Below, piece by piece: positions 1 through 7,420 of a DNA stretch of 64,000 nucleotides. Each line of letters opens with the position of its first letter. Position 1 is the first letter of the stretch. The notes under the pieces are model-generated. The model ran no database searches. It was given only the letters and a program-made list of their open reading frames with translations, and was not told where the DNA came from. The DNA comes from an uncultured Lachnospiraceae bacterium (GTDB lineage: Bacteria; Bacillota; Clostridia; Lachnospirales; Lachnospiraceae): NCBI GenBank assembly GCA_947644545.1, contig CANRZW010000001.1, forward strand, positions 124,001 to 188,000. Reading direction: 5' to 3'. Both the position numbers and the translations under genes were made by a program.

Positions 1-709
1 CGATAACGATCACCGCAGGAGACGTAAAATCATGTTCTTTCGCCTCCTCATATAGTCTGCCCAGCGTCGTGCGCAGACATCTTTGTCTGCCCGTTGTCCC
101 TTCCATGATGACGGCACAGGGCGTGTCCTCACTTTTTCCCGCCGCCAGCAGTCCGGCCGTAATCTCCTGCAGATGATGCATCCCCATCAGGATCACCAGC
201 GTACCGTCCAATCGCGCCAGCGTATCAAAGTCCAGCCGCAGACGTCCATCCCCCTCTGCCACGGTTCCCGTCACCACCGTGACCGCTGTCGAGAGTCCCC
301 TGTGCGTGACCGGAATCCCGGCTGCCGCAGGCACCGCAATGGCGGATGAGATTCCCGGTATCTCCTCACAGGAAATGCCGGCCTCCTTCAATGCTAGGAA
401 TTCTTCGCCGCCTCTGCCAAACACATAGGGATCGCCGCCCTTTAAGCGCACCACCGTCTTACCTTCCGACGCCTTCTCCACCAACAGGTCATTGATCTGT
501 GATTGTTCCCTGGCGTGGCTGCCATAACGCTTTCCCACATAGATCCGCTCACACTCCGGCCCGGTCCACTGCAGCAGCTCCTCCTCTACCAGACTGTCAT
601 AGACCACCACATCGCACCTGCGCAGGACTTGTACCGCCCGCAGAGTCAAAAGCCGCGGATCACCGCACCCGCCGCCTGTCAGATATACTTTTCCGCTCTT
701 CTTATTCAC
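1..709 (-). CDS. cobA: uroporphyrinogen-III C-methyltransferase (SUMT), 3' end cut by window
   Basis: This enzyme transfers two methyl groups from SAM to uroporphyrinogen III, making precorrin-2 for siroheme and cobalamin. The reverse-strand translation shows the family landmarks in order: a modified N-terminal glycine loop (GGGCGDPRLLTLRA), YDSLV, YVGKR, RLKGGDPYVFGRGGEE and PGISSAIAVPAAAGIPVTHR. I chose the GTG at 709 because it sits 9 bases after the hemC stop with AGGGGG just upstream and leads straight into the conserved core. About 236 codons are inside the window and the frame is still open at base 1. In many Clostridia this protein is fused to uroporphyrinogen-III synthase (HemD); whether that is so here cannot be seen. 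It is cotranscribed with hemC. Confidence 0.93.
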   Translation of the reverse strand, partial: MNKKSGKVYLTGGGCGDPRLLTLRAVQVLRRCDVVVYDSLVEEELLQWTGPECERIYVGKRYGSHAREQSQINDLLVEKASEGKTVVRLKGGDPYVFGRGGEEFLALKEAGISCEEIPGISSAIAVPAAAGIPVTHRGLSTAVTVVTGTVAEGDGRLRLDFDTLARLDGTLVILMGMHHLQEITAGLLAAGKSEDTPCAVIMEGTTGRQRCLRTTLGRLYEEAKEHDFTSPAVIVI

Positions 710-718
710 CCTGACCCC

Positions 719-1741
719 CTATGATTCCGTCTTCGCTTTCAGCAGTTTCGCCGCCTGTTCTGCCATCAGCCTGCCCTCCTGCAGATTCGCCCGGCAATCC
801 AGGCTGACGCTTTGCCCGGCATACATCGCATGCAGCGTCAACCTGTCGCACTCCTGTCTGCACCAGGCCGCGGCCGCCTCACTGCAATCCGCCGCAAGCT
901 GCCATAGCACCTCCCGTTCCACCCGAAAACACAGTTCCGTCTCCGTGTCCGTAACCTTACGGCAAAGCGTTTCCACCGCGGTATCCCGTATGGTCTCCAC
1001 CGCAATCATCCCCTGACAGGCCGCCGGTATAAAAATCTTTGGCGACAGCGGACAGAAACGAAACGCCTCCTCGTCACTGCCCTCCTCGCCGCCGATTCCC
1101 AGACGGTCCAGCCCGGCCTTCGCCAGGATGATTCCGTCATAACCGCCCTCCTGCAGTTTGCGCAGTCTCGTGTCCACATTGCCCCGGATATTCTCACAGG
1201 CCACATTTTCCCAGAGCATACCGGCCAACAGCTGACGCCTTCTGCTGCCACTCCCGACCCGGAATATCTCTCCCTTGCTGTCTGTCCCGCCGCATATCTT
1301 TGTACATGCACTCTCTGTTCCGCTTTGTAACAACTGCCCCATGAAAAGCGAATCGCCGGCATCCGATTGCATACAGGCCAAAGGACTGCGCAGCGACGGC
1401 ATTCTTCCGTCCTTTGGAATTACAAGTACATCCCGCACATCAGCCCGCGGCAGGACAGCGGCTATCTCCAATCCGTCCGCCAAGGTCATCGGCAGATCCT
1501 TGGCAGAATGCACCGCAGCATCGATCCTTCCGTCTAACAGCGCCTGCTCCAGTTCCGAAGCAAAGACCCCCTTTTCCCCAATCTCCGACAACGGTTTATC
1601 CTGTATCCTGTCCCCTCTTGTATGCAGAATGACGAGTTCCGTCTCTGCAAAACCTGCTGCCCGCAATAACGCTTCCTGCACTAACGCAGCCTGCTTCAAG
1701 GCCAGTTTGCTGCCCCGCGTTCCTATCCTGATCCTCTCCAT
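719..1741 (-). CDS. hemC: porphobilinogen deaminase (hydroxymethylbilane synthase) with an internal insertion
   Basis: It polymerises four porphobilinogens into hydroxymethylbilane in the cytoplasm. The N-terminus IRIGTRGSKLALKQA, the HSAKDLP motif with catalytic Asp near residue 83, RGNVDTRLRKL near 187 and a Cys near 286 (ADCSEAAAAW, at the place of the dipyrromethane-binding GGC motif) are all visible. At 340 residues it is about 30 longer than usual. The excess lies at about residues 119-158, between the end of domain 1 and the VGSGSRRRQ motif, and contains three cysteines. The normal Gly-Gly before the cofactor cysteine is Ala-Asp. It lies between the precorrin-2 dehydrogenase gene (24-base gap) and cobA in one siroheme operon. 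Confidence 0.93.
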   Translation of the reverse strand: MERIRIGTRGSKLALKQAALVQEALLRAAGFAETELVILHTRGDRIQDKPLSEIGEKGVFASELEQALLDGRIDAAVHSAKDLPMTLADGLEIAAVLPRADVRDVLVIPKDGRMPSLRSPLACMQSDAGDSLFMGQLLQSGTESACTKICGGTDSKGEIFRVGSGSRRRQLLAGMLWENVACENIRGNVDTRLRKLQEGGYDGIILAKAGLDRLGIGGEEGSDEEAFRFCPLSPKIFIPAACQGMIAVETIRDTAVETLCRKVTDTETELCFRVEREVLWQLAADCSEAAAAWCRQECDRLTLHAMYAGQSVSLDCRANLQEGRLMAEQAAKLLKAKTES

Positions 1742-1765: not shown

Positions 1766-2404
1766 TTACTTCGGCAGAAACTTCATCATTTCCCCGGGCG
1801 ATGCCTTTCCCCCTCTTTGCAGGCAATACAAAAACATCCTCTCCAGGACCTCTTTCCTGTCGTCCTCCCGCGTCACCCGCTCCATCACCAGCGGGCGCAT
1901 TTGACCCAGTAAGTCAATTGTGCTGCCCAGCCCCTCCGGCAGTGCATCGGCGATCTTTCCCCGCACCCATGCCGCCGCCACCGGACTTTTACCGTCCGTG
2001 GAGATGCCCACCGTCAACGCTCCGTCCTTCACCAGCGCCGGAAAAAAGAAGGTACACTTCTCCCGGTCATCCACCACATTGACCGGAATACACGCCGCCT
2101 GACAGTACTCCGCAATACGCCCGTTCAACACTTCGTCATCCGTGGCCGCGATCACGAAATCCGCTCCGGCCAGATCCTCAAGCACAAACGCCCGCTCCTC
2201 CAAAAGAAGAGAAGCCGCCCCATGTTCCTGCTCCCGCGGCCGCTTCTCCAATGCCCTCATACAATCCTCGATCCTGGGCGCGATCACTGTCAGCACCGGG
2301 CCAAAAGGAAGCAGCTTCTCCACCTTCCTCGCCGCCACCCGGCCGCCGCCCACGATCACCCCCTCTTTCCCGCCTATCTCCATAAAAAAGGGGAAATGTC
2401 CCAT
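1766..2404 (-). CDS. precorrin-2 dehydrogenase / sirohydrochlorin ferrochelatase (Met8p/CysG-N type)
   Basis: A 212-residue protein of the family that oxidises precorrin-2 with NAD to sirohydrochlorin and, in bifunctional members, inserts iron to give siroheme. The N-terminal Rossmann motif VIVGGGRVAARK (residues 16-27), TVIAPRIE, VIAATDDEVLN and the signature NVVDDREKCTFFFPA with Asp112/Asp113 are visible; the equivalent Asp of CysG/Met8p is the general base. Length is typical of stand-alone members (SirC/YlnF). It sits between hemA and hemC on the same strand, which together with cobA gives most of a uroporphyrinogen-to-siroheme route. Whether this copy chelates iron cannot be decided from sequence. 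Confidence 0.9.
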   Translation of the reverse strand: MGHFPFFMEIGGKEGVIVGGGRVAARKVEKLLPFGPVLTVIAPRIEDCMRALEKRPREQEHGAASLLLEERAFVLEDLAGADFVIAATDDEVLNGRIAEYCQAACIPVNVVDDREKCTFFFPALVKDGALTVGISTDGKSPVAAAWVRGKIADALPEGLGSTIDLLGQMRPLVMERVTREDDRKEVLERMFLYCLQRGGKASPGEMMKFLPK

Positions 2405-2575: not shown

Positions 2576-3733
2576 TCACCGTTGTTTCTCATACACTGCC
2601 TGCTTCTTCAACACCTGCATAACGGCTTCAAATGATGCACTGTCCAGCTCGTCACGCAGCAAATAGAGCAACTTTTCCGCCGGGTACTGCGCATAGCGTT
2701 CCTTCCAATCTCGGTCAGTCTCCGTAAACCGGTGAAACGAAAGCGTCTTACTAAGCTTCTCCAGCTCTTCCGCCAGAATCTCCTCCGCATCCGCCAGCGC
2801 CTGCTGCTTTAATCTGTTATTCTCTTCAGCCAGACTCTTAATCTCATCTAACGCCACAAAGCGGCAGTGCTCCAGCCACCCAATCTCCGCGTCGATATCC
2901 GGCGGCATGGAAATATCAATAAAAAGCCTCTCTTTCGTCTCCCTGGCCCTTCTCAAAACTTCCCTGACCCGGCCCGCCGTCAGCGTATAATGCGGACTGG
3001 CCGTGGCGGAGATCACCGCATCCGCTTCCTGCAGATAAGCATACCGCTCCTGATAGGGCACATTTTCCACCCGTGGACTACTGCTTTGGAGCAGCCCATT
3101 GTGCGACCGGATCGTGGCAATAACCCGGATATTTTCCTGACTCAGCAGATTCTTCAGGATAATGCCGCCCATCTGTCCGCTGCTGCCAATCAACAGCACC
3201 GTTTTATGCGGCAACGGCAGACGAAACACTTCATTTGCCGCCAGCGTAGCCACGGAAACGGAAGTTTTGGAGAGCATCGTCTCCGTCTTCACCCGCTTGG
3301 CACACGCCAGCGCCGCCTGAAAAATGCAATTCAACTCATAGCCGGTACAGCCGGCCTCCTTGGCGCGGGTGTAAGCATCCCGCACCTGTCCCAGGATCTC
3401 ATCCTCCCCGATCACCATGGACTCCATCCCGCAGACTACCCGGAAAAGATGCTGCAGCGCCTTTCGCCCCTGATATCGCCTTGCCAGCCCTCTGATCCAC
3501 TCGCCGTCACAGCCGGTCTCCCTGGCCAGCGCTTCTTCCAACTCCCGGAAACGGTTTGCCTCTCCCGGCACATAAATCTCCATGCGGTTGCAGGTGGACA
3601 ATGTCACACATTCATCCACCCCGGCAGCCGCCAGGATCTCCCGCCGGAAATTCTCCGCCTTTTCTCCCGGAATACAGCACTTCTGCCGCTTGACAGATGC
3701 CGCCGTCTTATGGCTGATACTGATACATTCCAT
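2576..3733 (-). CDS. hemA: glutamyl-tRNA reductase
   Basis: It reduces Glu-tRNA(Glu) to glutamate-1-semialdehyde with NADPH, the first step of C5-pathway tetrapyrrole synthesis. The N-terminus has ISHKTA and the LSTCNRMEIYV motif with the nucleophilic Cys48. The central NADPH fold starts with VLLIGSSGQMG, and SATASPHYTL and FIDISMPPDID follow. It is 385 residues, somewhat shorter than the usual 410-450, with a reduced C-terminal dimerisation region. It is the first gene of the hemA/dehydrogenase/hemC/cobA run and lies 127 bases after the multi-domain reductase gene on the same strand. Confidence 0.95.
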   Translation of the reverse strand: MECISISHKTAASVKRQKCCIPGEKAENFRREILAAAGVDECVTLSTCNRMEIYVPGEANRFRELEEALARETGCDGEWIRGLARRYQGRKALQHLFRVVCGMESMVIGEDEILGQVRDAYTRAKEAGCTGYELNCIFQAALACAKRVKTETMLSKTSVSVATLAANEVFRLPLPHKTVLLIGSSGQMGGIILKNLLSQENIRVIATIRSHNGLLQSSSPRVENVPYQERYAYLQEADAVISATASPHYTLTAGRVREVLRRARETKERLFIDISMPPDIDAEIGWLEHCRFVALDEIKSLAEENNRLKQQALADAEEILAEELEKLSKTLSFHRFTETDRDWKERYAQYPAEKLLYLLRDELDSASFEAVMQVLKKQAVYEKQR

Positions 3734-3860: not shown

Positions 3861-6446
3861 TTAGCAGGTCGCCCCGCCTTTCAGATGCAGCTTCGCCCCG
3901 ATGATCTCTTCCTTGCGGGCCAGCAGATCGTCCGTCATAAGCTGGGCCTGCACATTCTCGAATCCGAGTCTGCTGATGGTATCCGCGAAGCGTTCGCCCG
4001 TCCTGCCCTGTTCCCGGAACAACAGGATCGCCTTTTCCAGTACGGAAAGCACTTCTTTTTCGCTTAAGAAAATCTTATCCAGCTTCCTCCCCTGGGCTAC
4101 CCGCTTGCCCCAGCGGCCGCCGATGTAAACACGGTAACCGTAAGCGCTCTCCTCCGCTGCCTTAAACGGGCATTTGCCCACGCAGCGGCCGCAGTTGTTA
4201 CACTGGTCCGGATCGATCACCAGCTTGCCGTCCACCACCAAAGATGCCTCCACCGGGCACGCCAGAGCGACCTGACAGATCTTACAGCCGCGGCATTTCT
4301 CCGGATCGATCACCGGCACTTTCTGTCCTACGATACCGAAATCGTTCAGATCCGGTTTCACACAGTTGTTCGGGCACCCGCCCACCGCGATCTTGAACTT
4401 ATGGGGCAGCTTCACAGACGCATAGCCGTGGAAGAACCGCTCATGAATCTCCTCCGACAGGCGATAGGAATCCAAAAGGCCGTATTGGCAGGTCGTTCCC
4501 TTACATGCCACCACCGGACGCACTTTGGATCCGGTACCGCCGGTCTCCAAACCTTCCTCCGCCAGAAATGCCCGGAGCGCCTCGATCCTGTCAAAAGGCA
4601 CTCCCACGATCTCCATCGTCAGACGGGTGGTCATCACCACATCCCCGCTGCCGAACCTCTCCGCCGCCTCCGCGATCTTCTTATGCTCTGCCACGGTGAT
4701 CTTGCCGTTTCTGGTGATCACGCGCACGTTGAACTTATTGGTGCCCTTATTGTGCAGACAGCCCAGCGCCTTGACACGGGTGATCTCCTCCGCCGGCACC
4801 GTCACCACACCCGGCTTTTCCGCCGCCTTCACCACATTGAAGAAGGAAGACCCTTCCAACACCTTCGTGTTCGTATAGCCGTAGCGTTTCAGCCTGTTCT
4901 GCAGCAGATAGGCCCTCTTGCCTTTCGCGCACACAAGCAGAAGCTTCTCGTCTTTACCAAGCCCCGGCACCTCACCTTTTACTTTTAACAGATCCACATA
5001 AGTGGCTCCCGCAATGGTCGGCCCCGCCGGATTCACGTCGATCACACGATAACCTTCCGCCGCTCCGGCCAGATACTCCGCCGGCGTGAAGCTGTCCAGA
5101 TCGCCCTCGATCTTATTCAGAAGCATATGTACCGCCTGCACGAAAGGATGAATTGCCGTGGAAAAAGGCGGCGCATAGGACAGATCCAGACAAGTCATCT
5201 GCTCCAGCGTGGCGCCGAAGGTCACTGCCATCACACCGATGTCCGTCACCTTATCCACCGCGCCCGGGCCCAATACCTGCACGCCCAGCAGCTTATGGCT
5301 GTCCGCATCTGCCACCAGCTTGATGGCAAACCATGCGCTGCCCGGATAATAATGCGCCTTGTCATCCGTCACCGCCAGCACACAGGCCGGCTTATAGCCC
5401 GCCGCTTTTGCCTGCTCCTCGGAAAGCCCTGTCCGGCCGCCCGAAAGCCCCGGCAGCTTCACCACGCCCGTTCCCAGAACGCCCGGATAACTCACATCTC
5501 TGCCGCCAAGCGAAAGCGCCAGCGTCCGGCCCTCCATGTTGGCGGAAGACCCCATGGGCGACCACTGCCGCTCACCCGTGAGACGGTTCTTCACCATCGC
5601 ACAGTCACCTGCCGCATACACATCCGGCACGCTGGTCGCCATCTTAGCATCCACCAGGATCGTGCCTTTAAACATCTCCATGCCCGTATCCTGCAAAAAG
5701 CCCGTATTCGGCCGGATGCCGATGGACAGGATCACCATGTCTGCCGGCAGCAGTCCCTTGTCCGTCTGCACGCCTTCCGCTCTCTCCTCGCCCGTCACGC
5801 CGTTAAGCTTCGTTCCGGTGAGCACCGTGATTCCCTTTTTCTCCAAATGACGGACTGCAAAATTCGCCATCTCCGTGTCGAAGCCCGGCATGATCTGCGG
5901 AGCCATATCGATCAGCGTCACGGACAATCCCTTTTCCAGAAGGTTCTCCGCCACTTCCAGACCGATGAAACCGCCGCCAACAACCACGGCTCGCTTCACA
6001 CCGTCGCGGGCAATATACTCCCTTGTCTCAATCGCATCGTCAGGCGTCCGCATCACGAACACACCCGGCAGATTAAGGCCCGGCAGAGGCGGCACCACCG
6101 GCGATGCCCCCACCGCCACGATACAGGCATCGTACTCGTAGACTTCCTCCGCTCCCGTGCGCAGATTCTTCGCCGTCGCCTTCTTCCCGGCCGGATCAAG
6201 CGCCACCACTTCCCGCTGCGGATAGACCATCGCCCCGGTCAACGTACTATACTTCTCCGGCGTATTCACGATCAGCTGCTCCTTCTCCGGGATCGATCCG
6301 CCCACATAATAGGGCAGTCCGCAGCCCGCATAGGAAATGTCCTTTCCCTTCGTGACAATGGTCACCTCCGCTTCCGGATTCACCCGTTTAAATTTCGCCG
6401 CAGCCTTCGTTCCGGCCGCCACCCCGCCAATTACCAGTAATTTCAT
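3861..6446 (-). CDS. fused CoA-disulfide-reductase-like flavoprotein / rhodanese / siroheme sulfite-reductase-like domain / 2[4Fe-4S] ferredoxin
   Basis: One 861-residue chain carries four recognisable modules. Residues 1-445 are a FAD/NAD(P)H disulfide oxidoreductase of the CoA-disulfide/NADH-oxidase type (VIGGVAAGTKAA, redox Cys42 in YAGCGLPYY, second dinucleotide fold VVVGGGFIGLEVAE at 154-167, AAGDCA at 278). Residues about 455-555 are a rhodanese-like domain with Cys506 in VCAKGKRA. Residues about 565-710 resemble a nitrite/sulfite reductase ferredoxin-like plus siroheme half (TTRLTMEIVG; Cys648, Cys653, Cys691, Cys695). Residues 712-765 hold two ferredoxin motifs, the first with CxxCxxC-x5-CP spacing, the second classical. 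This layout suggests electron flow from NAD(P)H through flavin and clusters to a siroheme, acting on persulfide, sulfite or similar. It has AGAGGAGG upstream and precedes the siroheme genes. Substrate is inference. Confidence 0.88.
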   Translation of the reverse strand: MKLLVIGGVAAGTKAAAKFKRVNPEAEVTIVTKGKDISYAGCGLPYYVGGSIPEKEQLIVNTPEKYSTLTGAMVYPQREVVALDPAGKKATAKNLRTGAEEVYEYDACIVAVGASPVVPPLPGLNLPGVFVMRTPDDAIETREYIARDGVKRAVVVGGGFIGLEVAENLLEKGLSVTLIDMAPQIMPGFDTEMANFAVRHLEKKGITVLTGTKLNGVTGEERAEGVQTDKGLLPADMVILSIGIRPNTGFLQDTGMEMFKGTILVDAKMATSVPDVYAAGDCAMVKNRLTGERQWSPMGSSANMEGRTLALSLGGRDVSYPGVLGTGVVKLPGLSGGRTGLSEEQAKAAGYKPACVLAVTDDKAHYYPGSAWFAIKLVADADSHKLLGVQVLGPGAVDKVTDIGVMAVTFGATLEQMTCLDLSYAPPFSTAIHPFVQAVHMLLNKIEGDLDSFTPAEYLAGAAEGYRVIDVNPAGPTIAGATYVDLLKVKGEVPGLGKDEKLLLVCAKGKRAYLLQNRLKRYGYTNTKVLEGSSFFNVVKAAEKPGVVTVPAEEITRVKALGCLHNKGTNKFNVRVITRNGKITVAEHKKIAEAAERFGSGDVVMTTRLTMEIVGVPFDRIEALRAFLAEEGLETGGTGSKVRPVVACKGTTCQYGLLDSYRLSEEIHERFFHGYASVKLPHKFKIAVGGCPNNCVKPDLNDFGIVGQKVPVIDPEKCRGCKICQVALACPVEASLVVDGKLVIDPDQCNNCGRCVGKCPFKAAEESAYGYRVYIGGRWGKRVAQGRKLDKIFLSEKEVLSVLEKAILLFREQGRTGERFADTISRLGFENVQAQLMTDDLLARKEEIIGAKLHLKGGATC

Positions 6447-6599: not shown

Positions 6600-7079
6600 C
6601 TATCCCCTCCTCTCAAGCTCCCGCAGGTTGATCATGGAAATGATCTCTTTCTGCCGCTTTTCCACCTCCTCGATCCTGATTCTGCCAATGTCATTTCTTA
6701 TTTTTTCAAACGCAATGGCAGGAAACAGTTTTTCACATAGATCATTAATCCCCGGCGATGCCCCCATCAGAGCTGTTACAAGCGCCTTCTCGTCAAACAG
6801 TCGCAGACTCTCTTCCAGCTCCTTTTCCGGAATTGCGGACAGCTGTTCAAAATCCGTTATCTTCCGGGGCTGTATGTCCGGTTCTAATATGTCGTTGATG
6901 GAGATGTCATACAGGTTGGACAGCTGCAGAAGAATCTCCAGGTCTGGGATCGTCGCTCCCGTCTCCCATTTTGAGACAGCCTGTCTCGACAGGTGCAGTC
7001 TTTTAGCCAGATCCTCCTGCGTGTAATGATGCCTTTTCCGCAGATATTGTAAATGCCCCGCTATCAGATTCGTATTCAT
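6600..7079 (-). CDS. XRE-family (Cro/C1-type) transcriptional regulator
   Basis: A 159-residue DNA-binding protein. Its N-terminal 60 residues form a typical Cro/C1 helix-turn-helix (LRKRHHYTQEDLAKRLHLS, then RQAVSKWETGATIPDLE). The C-terminal part is a charged, probably helical tail without a recognised domain. I start it at the ATG at 7079 because AAAGGAG lies 10 bases upstream and the family begins just before the helix-turn-helix; a longer reading to 7238 has no such site. A perfect TATAAT on the same strand lies at 7123-7128. It is read away from the AraC-type gene at 7421 and toward the fusion reductase. Its target is not evident. Confidence 0.85.
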   Translation of the reverse strand: MNTNLIAGHLQYLRKRHHYTQEDLAKRLHLSRQAVSKWETGATIPDLEILLQLSNLYDISINDILEPDIQPRKITDFEQLSAIPEKELEESLRLFDEKALVTALMGASPGINDLCEKLFPAIAFEKIRNDIGRIRIEEVEKRQKEIISMINLRELERRG

Positions 7080-7420
7080 ATTAAATCCACTCCTTTCTCG
7101 TCCCTGTACTGCTGTTATCTCTATTATAAAGCATATGGAAAGAAGCGATAAGCATCTGTCAGGCGCAATAAAGCAAGCAATAATCGTCTGGCAGATTGCT
7201 ATACCGCTTGCTGTCACTCCCTGCCCTGAAACTTCCATTCCAAAAACAAGGACAAATAAAAGCCCAAAATGTCAGGACTTCCACATACGCATATGTTACA
7301 ATGACTTCATCAGGGCAGGAGTCAAACAGTCAATAATCCCGCCACAAGCACAGTGCCTGGCTCATTGCACGCGGGATAAATTGACAACAACATAATCAGT
7401 ATGGACGACAGGGAGGAAAC
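7080..7420. other. intergenic region between divergent regulator genes
   Basis: About 340 bases without a convincing gene. It holds a minus-strand TATAAT at 7123-7128 for the XRE gene and a plus-strand extended -10 (TGTTACAAT, 7294-7302) for the AraC-type gene; neither has a good -35. TTGACA at 7381 has no -10 at proper spacing. Nothing else was recognised. Confidence 0.5.
7123..7128 (-). promoter_or_regulatory. -10 element for the XRE regulator
   Basis: TATAAT on the minus strand, about 45 bases before the ATG at 7079. The -35 position (TTATCG) is poor. Confidence 0.45.

Follow-up and report, generated by a model that had tools for sequence, protein, structure and literature searches.

The stretch of DNA analysed here (the window) comprises 64,000 nucleotides from an uncultured Lachnospiraceae bacterium (assembly GCA_947644545.1, contig CANRZW010000001.1, positions 124,001–188,000 of the forward strand). 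It carries a complete gene in which an NADH-dependent persulfide reductase (NPSR), a rhodanese and a siroheme sulfite reductase are joined in one chain, followed in the same direction by genes of siroheme synthesis (Table 1). A first-pass annotation made from the sequence alone had reported an open reading frame (ORF) of 861 residues at this place without naming the strand; the frame was confirmed and lies on the minus strand, and frame 1 of the plus strand across the same positions is interrupted by stops. Pfam matches above the cut-off are Pyr_redox_2, Pyr_redox_dim, Rhodanese, NIR_SIR_ferr, NIR_SIR (113.6 bits) and several Fer4 families, which include all five families that the annotation had expected (NIR_SIR, NIR_SIR_ferr, Rhodanese, Pyr_redox_2 and Fer4). 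A scan for promoters and terminators was uninformative (five promoter-like sites against 2.5 expected, four terminator-like sites against 4.1 expected).

Table 1. Features of the fusion gene and its surroundings in the window; the last row refers to two related loci.
Feature	Position	Strand	Basis or remark
NPSR-rhodanese-sulfite reductase fusion gene, complete, 861 aa, ATG start	3861..6446	-	ORF, Pfam, relatives, AF2 model
FAD/NAD(P)H CoA-persulfide-reductase module, residues 1-440	5127..6446	-	Pyr_redox_2 217.7 bits, Pyr_redox_dim
Redox Cys42 codon	6321-6323	-	within CoA-persulfide-reductase module
Rhodanese module, residues 441-545	4812..5126	-	Pfam Rhodanese 25.6 bits (cut-off 22.2)
Cys506 codon, loop CAKGKR	4929-4931	-	within rhodanese module
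Fsr/Dsr-LP-type siroheme sulfite reductase half, residues 548-861	3864..4805	-	
Inserted two-cluster ferredoxin motifs, Cys718-759	4170..4295	-	Fer4 families
C-terminal extension past last Fsr-aligned residue, residues 845-861, ends GGATC (Cys861)	3864..3914	-	
hemA, glutamyl-tRNA reductase	2576..3733	-	GlutR_N, Shikimate_DH; 127 bp after fusion gene
MET8/CysG-N-type siroheme synthase (precorrin-2 dehydrogenase/chelatase)	1766..2404	-	NAD_binding_7, Sirohm_synth_M; TIGR01470 140.2 bits
hemC, porphobilinogen deaminase	719..1741	-	PF01379 217 bits
cobA-hemD fusion, 5' part	1..709	-	gene, then hemB and hemL, run on left of window (L002)
FecBCD-type ABC transporter with Peripla_BP_2 binding protein, candidate siroheme importer	L108:1080-2054; L109:7072-8851		

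The N-terminal part of the chain resembles known persulfide reductases. The AF2 model of the whole protein has a pLDDT of 85.8, and Foldseek superimposed about 540 of its residues, the rhodanese included, on the CoA-persulfide reductase 8a56 (TMt 0.91); the sequence match of the NPSR module to the same protein has an E value of 1.5e-95. The rhodanese-bearing NPSR/CoA-persulfide reductases EfCoAPR (8a56), SlNpsr, AfNpsr (6pfz) and BaCoADR-RHD share with residues 1–540 the fold, Cys42 and the rhodanese cysteine at an identity of about 32–36%. The protein thus has both the CoA-disulfide-reductase-type FAD fold with Cys42 and the C-terminal cysteine-bearing rhodanese of the NPSRs, but it differs from them in a more basic rhodanese loop and in being fused to, or in relatives paired with, a siroheme enzyme. 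The matches listed in the fold search with the whole model reach residue 540 at most, and the sulfite-reductase half was therefore modelled separately. In this second model the range aligned with Fsr stops at model residue 297, which corresponds to residue 844 and leaves the C-terminal extension unmatched; residues 855–861 have a pLDDT below 50 in the AF2 model. The last residue, Cys861, had been overlooked in the first-pass annotation.

The residues expected of each active site are present. Cys42, Cys506, the four cysteines of the [4Fe-4S]-siroheme site (Cys648, 653, 691 and 695) and both ferredoxin motifs (Cys718/721/724/730 and Cys749/752/755/759) stand where the annotation had placed or implied them, and so do the two spacings to which it had drawn attention, C-x4-C at the siroheme site and five residues ahead of CP in the first ferredoxin motif. 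An alignment of 81 members (the window protein and 80 fused relatives) showed that Cys42, Cys506, the siroheme-site cysteines and the eight ferredoxin cysteines are kept throughout apart from single unresolved letters, a single X in the case of the ferredoxin cysteines, so that a chance origin of these motifs is ruled out. Cys861 is kept in 80 of the 81 and falls in a gap in the remaining one; the relative L024 is cut short by the end of its contig. The sulfite ligands of MjFsr, Arg355, Arg423, Lys460 and Lys462, align with R575, R643, K683 and K685, while its Arg388 (an assimilatory trait) and Cys428 align with R608 and C648, the correspondences having been counted by hand from the alignment; the roles of these residues are taken from PMC10229431. 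The six residues R575, R608, R643, C648, K683 and K685 are invariant in a 39-row alignment and in all 102 sulfite-reductase rows of a larger one (83 fused, six split and 13 solitary). The C-x4-C spacing, which had been called unusual, does differ from the C-x5-C of Fsr; however, it is clade-wide, being found in the fused and split rows and in 11 of the 13 solitary ones. Two enzymes of 286–287 residues from loci with CysDN-AprAB (L120 and L121), whose AprA scores above a cut-off, have C-x5-C as in Fsr. The C-x4-C is, as judged from these alignments, a one-residue shortening that marks a clade.

Among known systems, Fsr is the nearest in plan. Both are single chains in which an electron-donating flavoprotein is joined to a one-half siroheme sulfite reductase with a ferredoxin insert, and the four substrate residues and the assimilatory-type arginine are identical. 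The donor of Fsr is an F420H2 oxidase, whereas here it is an NPSR-rhodanese: no FrhB family (the FrhB/FpoF-type oxidase of Fsr) occurs among the 21 Pfam matches, and the best folds are NPSRs. The CX5CXnCX3C motif of Fsr is absent as well, and the cysteine-bearing C-terminal tail is extra. AsrC shares the Dsr-LP-type siroheme subunit and the two ferredoxin motifs, and yet the TIGR02912 model for AsrC scored 98.6 bits against a cut-off of 324.1. AsrABC itself is an NADH-linked complex of three subunits, with other flavin and ferredoxin subunits. The models for CoA-disulfide reductase (TIGR03385, 383.9 bits, cut-off 578.8) and NirB (TIGR02374, 209 bits, cut-off 578.35) also fell short. Membership of the broader siroheme sulfite/nitrite reductase superfamily is borne out by NIR_SIR, NIR_SIR_ferr and the four cluster cysteines. 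Taken together, the enzyme would work as Fsr does, with an NPSR-rhodanese at the front, and by these comparisons neither Fsr, AsrC, NirB nor CoA-disulfide reductase can claim it. A siroheme enzyme joined to a rhodanese has been reported in Halobacteria, where 19 of 529 NirA proteins are such fusions (PMC11237513); these have a four-domain NirA, and no persulfide reductase module is mentioned in the passage on them.

The genes that follow in the same direction are, in order, hemA, MET8, hemC, cobA-hemD, hemB and hemL, and the gaps along this run from the fusion gene onwards are 127, 171, 24, 9, 0 and 54 bp. They would provide the route from glutamyl-tRNA to siroheme, provided that MET8 also inserts iron, as its yeast namesake does. 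A PF01077 (NIR_SIR) search of the 4.07 Mb genome of the organism found the fusion gene as the sole match. An identical order of siroheme genes has been reported beside sulfate genes in Ruminococcus bromii (PMC6378601), which, together with a CysD in the organism's own genome, could suggest that the enzyme is the sulfite reductase of ordinary sulfate assimilation. This is very improbable. The CysD is part of a CysDNC cluster that includes APS kinase; neither AprA nor a CysH-like APS/PAPS reductase was found in this genome, which is 95% complete, although the AprA model scores 340–354 bits on AprA proteins from three other Lachnospiraceae loci. The only other PF01507 match adjoins a DndB gene and is DndC-like. 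Since no APS/PAPS reductase was found, sulfite is unlikely to arise from sulfate in this organism, and sulfate assimilation was rejected as its sulfite source, with the completeness of the genome as a caveat. In addition, the two genomes with CysDN-AprAB hold the different, C-x5-C sulfite reductase described above, and there is no association between CysD and the sulfite-reductase half among Lachnospiraceae genomes (12/53 with the half against 38/197 without, p 0.57; the count consists of 47 genomes over the cut-off and three with broken matches). As separate observations, the CysDNC cluster (G000:C21, L117:3445-10029) includes a sulfate-type ABC transporter, is likely to serve sulfation and has a flagellin-like gene (by eye) nearby, and the DndB gene (PF14072) with the adjacent DndC-like PAPS_reduct gene (G000:C4, L124:283-2937) belongs to DNA phosphorothioation.

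Many relatives lie near an ABC transporter with a Peripla_BP_2 binding protein, FecCD and an ATPase. Neighbourhoods were tallied for 95 of 100 loci; L043, L075, L078, L101 and L107 were left out because the simple gene caller missed their centre. Siroheme genes occur in 28 of the 95 and the binding protein in eight, never both (Fisher p 0.10). The pattern is far sharper across whole genomes. Among 80 genomes with the sulfite-reductase half, 54 of which have HemC and 24 the binding protein, the latter was found in 23 of 26 without HemC and in one of 54 with it (Fisher 8.7e-16), the exceptions being G049, G356, G412 and G263. With MET8 in place of HemC, the figures are 21 of 24 and 3 of 56. The binding protein shares a contig with the sulfite-reductase gene (or the gene pair) in 20 of the 24 genomes, the two lying 3–3381 bp apart, and in 245 Clostridia genomes it is present in 20 of 32 with the sulfite-reductase half against 13 of 213 without. 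Of the 23 HemC-lacking genomes with the binding protein, G426 has CobA and MET8 over the cut-off and G468 has MET8; the other 21 seem, by gene content, unable to make siroheme. A 58-row tree shows 12 changes of HemC and 11 of the binding protein, and well-supported branches yield four pairs, opposite wherever the binding protein differs (sign test p 0.125). The best explanation of the transporter is that of a candidate importer of siroheme or of a late precursor. That it imports the substrate of the enzyme was considered and set aside, as the transporter and siroheme synthesis hardly ever occur together. A phrase search of the literature found no paper on siroheme import. Because the importer would replace siroheme synthesis in relatives with the sulfite-reductase half, the enzyme appears to need siroheme in the cell. 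Folds, active-site residues, the siroheme gene cluster and the transporter found in nearly all HemC-lacking relatives thus give good support to the domain reading and siroheme dependence put forward in the first-pass annotation, and siroheme-dependent sulfite reduction is very probable.

The distribution of the fusion bears on whether its two halves work together. A scan of GTDB species found 437 stretches that encode relatives, and the fused relatives are the best 80 of these; their titles include Lachnospiraceae, Eisenbergiella, Blautia, Mediterraneibacter, Faecalicatena, Acutalibacter and Oscillospiraceae. At E 1e-100, matches were obtained in 46 of 245 Clostridia genomes (32 of them covering the sulfite-reductase half) and in 56 of 250 Lachnospiraceae genomes (53 covering it). 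Of 142 sulfite-reductase rows, 86 are fused, most of them the best 80 and so selected for likeness to the query, 25 have an NPSR-like gene next to them in the same orientation, with gaps of 11–258 bp, and 31 are solitary. In many gut Clostridia, then, the two modules occur fused or adjacent, and the sulfite-reductase half also occurs alone. The solitary forms suggest another reading, in which two enzymes are tethered or paired for channelling without transfer from FAD to siroheme, the sulfite-reductase half being fed by ferredoxin: the 31 solitary rows (29 outside a two-row outgroup) have no NPSR-like ORF within 1500 bp and must draw electrons from elsewhere, and known NPSRs carry out two-electron thiol chemistry (PMC7969121, PMC9405070). 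This is unlikely, as the partnership recurs although its state changes at least 11 times on a quick tree, and the titles of flavoproteins that share the NPSR fold mark them as ferredoxin reductases or components of Fe-S complexes (8c0z, BphA4, ArR). In the similarity search, the few named relatives are annotated only as 'FAD-dependent oxidoreductase'. No title or abstract start found by the literature search describes the fusion, subscription papers and preprints being outside its scope, and the fusion of NPSR and sulfite reductase is, as far as the searched literature shows, common yet unstudied.

Two traits set the partnered forms apart. The first is the rhodanese loop, which reads C-x-[KR]-[GA]-[KR]-[KR] in partnered proteins with one exception. 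Positions +2 and +4 from the cysteine are basic in 85 of 85 fused loops (one of which has the cysteine itself unresolved) and in 24 of 25 paired ones, the exception being L141, whereas this holds for none of the 14 solitary NPSR rows whose loop can be read; two further rows are gapped there. The corresponding loops of the PDB relatives are CHSGLR, CAIGLR and CQVGLR. A basic loop would suit an oxyanion such as thiosulfate; bovine rhodanese has CRKG. The second trait is the tail. GGA[TS]C ends 84 of the 85 fused rows whose end is closed and all 24 closed paired rows, and the remaining fused row (L023) has GGATC followed by three more letters, the first unresolved. Among the 31 solitary rows, two have this tail (L142 and L143), two have another terminal cysteine and 27 have none; L143 is a second sulfite-reductase copy in a genome that also holds the pair. 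In L142 (3261-4628) and L150 (2853-4211) the sulfite-reductase half is fused instead to a C_GCAxxG_C_C redox protein (PF09719), with the tail cysteine in L142 and without it in L150. On the quick tree (101 rows and 98 inner branches, 18 of them well supported and some long ones flagged), whose fused, paired and solitary states are those that switch at least 11 times, the tail switches nine times. The link between tail and partnership is strong by count and suggestive by phylogeny. The coupling of persulfide handling to sulfite reduction, as claimed in the first-pass annotation, gains support from the fusion, the adjacent gene pairs and these two traits, which are nearly exclusive to partnered forms, and a working coupling between the two parts is likely.

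The favoured reading makes the protein a sulfur reductase that depends on siroheme and is driven by NAD(P)H, its CoA-persulfide reductase-rhodanese and its Fsr-like sulfite reductase forming one sulfide-yielding unit; a probability of about 0.5 is given to this statement as a whole, its inferred steps being worded as such. The sequence NAD(P)H, FAD, Cys42/CoA and a Cys506-type persulfide is the known NPSR route (PMC7969121, PMC9405070). Cys506 would accept sulfane sulfur, which the FAD/Cys42/CoA site would reduce to HS-, and sulfite, either free or set loose in the rhodanese transfer, would undergo six-electron reduction at the siroheme. By analogy with Fsr, electrons may pass from NADH or NADPH via FAD and the ferredoxin clusters to siroheme. 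Thiosulfate or another S-sulfonate is tentatively proposed as the joint substrate; it would be the most economical choice, since the persulfide and the sulfite that come out of the rhodanese step are precisely what the other two sites use, and the reaction may be written S2O3 2- + 4 NADH -> 2 HS-. A precedent is found in Halanaerobium, where a rhodanese and a sulfite reductase turn thiosulfate into sulfide (PMC5497025). The tail with Cys861 probably serves as a carrier of sulfur or of a thiol, linking the rhodanese/FAD part with the siroheme part. A fuller version, a one-chain thiosulfate/S-sulfonate reductase with a mobile Cys861 arm as built-in counterpart of DsrC and with siroheme from its own cluster or, in relatives, from a dedicated importer, is conceivable but doubtful.

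Several points weigh against the unified sulfur reductase. MtFsr and MjFsr do not use thiosulfate, both lacking a rhodanese (PMC10229431), and the rhodanese of the E. faecalis NPSR is a weak thiosulfate sulfurtransferase. The joint substrate has little backing from gene context: a YedE/TsuA-like transporter was seen in only one (L097) of 20 neighbourhoods read, below curated cut-offs, and PF04143 is not associated with the sulfite-reductase half in Lachnospiraceae (12/53 against 32/197, p 0.31; 44 genomes over the cut-off, the weak G359 left out). On well-supported branches, the co-variation of tail and partner comes down to three independent pairs (sign test p 0.25), in which the tail follows the partner in 2.7 on average and never goes opposite. 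Pairing partners were assigned by nearness (<1500 bp), and that of L141 has an identity of only 31%. Finally, with 95% of the genome covered, an APS/PAPS reductase could be absent from the assembly only. In L097 (12162-13655), next to a paired NPSR and sulfite reductase, a TusA-like gene (by eye) is flanked by the split YedE/TsuA-like halves, which score under the cut-off.

Three other substrates or roles may be considered. The enzyme could be an NADH-dependent reductase for free sulfite, in detoxification or sulfur supply, with the rhodanese/persulfide site as a side activity or a point of electron entry. All Fsr substrate residues are kept, Fsr is a precedent for a donor module fused to a sulfite reductase (working with F420H2), and YeiH-family genes lie near three and a LysR cluster near 14 of the 95 centres, three scanned LysR proteins matching best YeiE or selenium-associated LysR models, all below cut-off. 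This is nevertheless rather unlikely, since the rhodanese cysteine and basic loop kept throughout the fused loops would be needless for mere electron entry. Reduction of nitrite to ammonium with NADH is improbable: siroheme enzymes reduce both sulfite and nitrite, and MtFsr favours nitrite by Km (PMC10229431), but the substrate residues are those of Group I Fsr and a rhodanese/persulfide partner would have no evident use in nitrite reduction. A role in selenite reduction or selenium supply seems remoter still. Two of the three LysR neighbours match best the selenium-associated model and L097 has its YedE/FdhT-like genes, and the selenite activity of MtFsr is 20.7% of its sulfite activity (PMC10229431); however, the LysR scores (184.9 and 195.2 bits) are below the cut-off of 250, and PF04143 was not found in the organism's own genome, where other selenium genes were not searched for.

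Sulfate reducers, Asr enzymes and the breakdown of cysteine are the sources to which sulfide from gut bacteria is generally attributed. The fusion enzyme is a probable producer of hydrogen sulfide from sulfite, and perhaps also from thiosulfate; if so, it would be an overlooked source in the gut, the sulfite-reductase half being present, fused, paired or solitary, in 53 of the 250 Lachnospiraceae genomes sampled. It would also offer an NAD(P)H counterpart of Fsr for studying how a flavin feeds siroheme within a single chain, and the solitary, paired and fused forms permit comparative tests of the roles of the rhodanese and the cysteine tail. If the transporter does carry siroheme, this would be a cofactor shared among gut bacteria.

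Some minor observations concern the surroundings and the relatives. A helix-turn-helix regulator gene (by eye; window 6600-7238, minus strand) immediately precedes the fusion gene in the same orientation. A DUF134 gene (PF02001; for example L040:7528-7929) and its cluster are found near 11 of the 95 centres. Two NPSR-rhodanese relatives, of 821 and 855 residues (L130 and L131), carry extra C-terminal parts.

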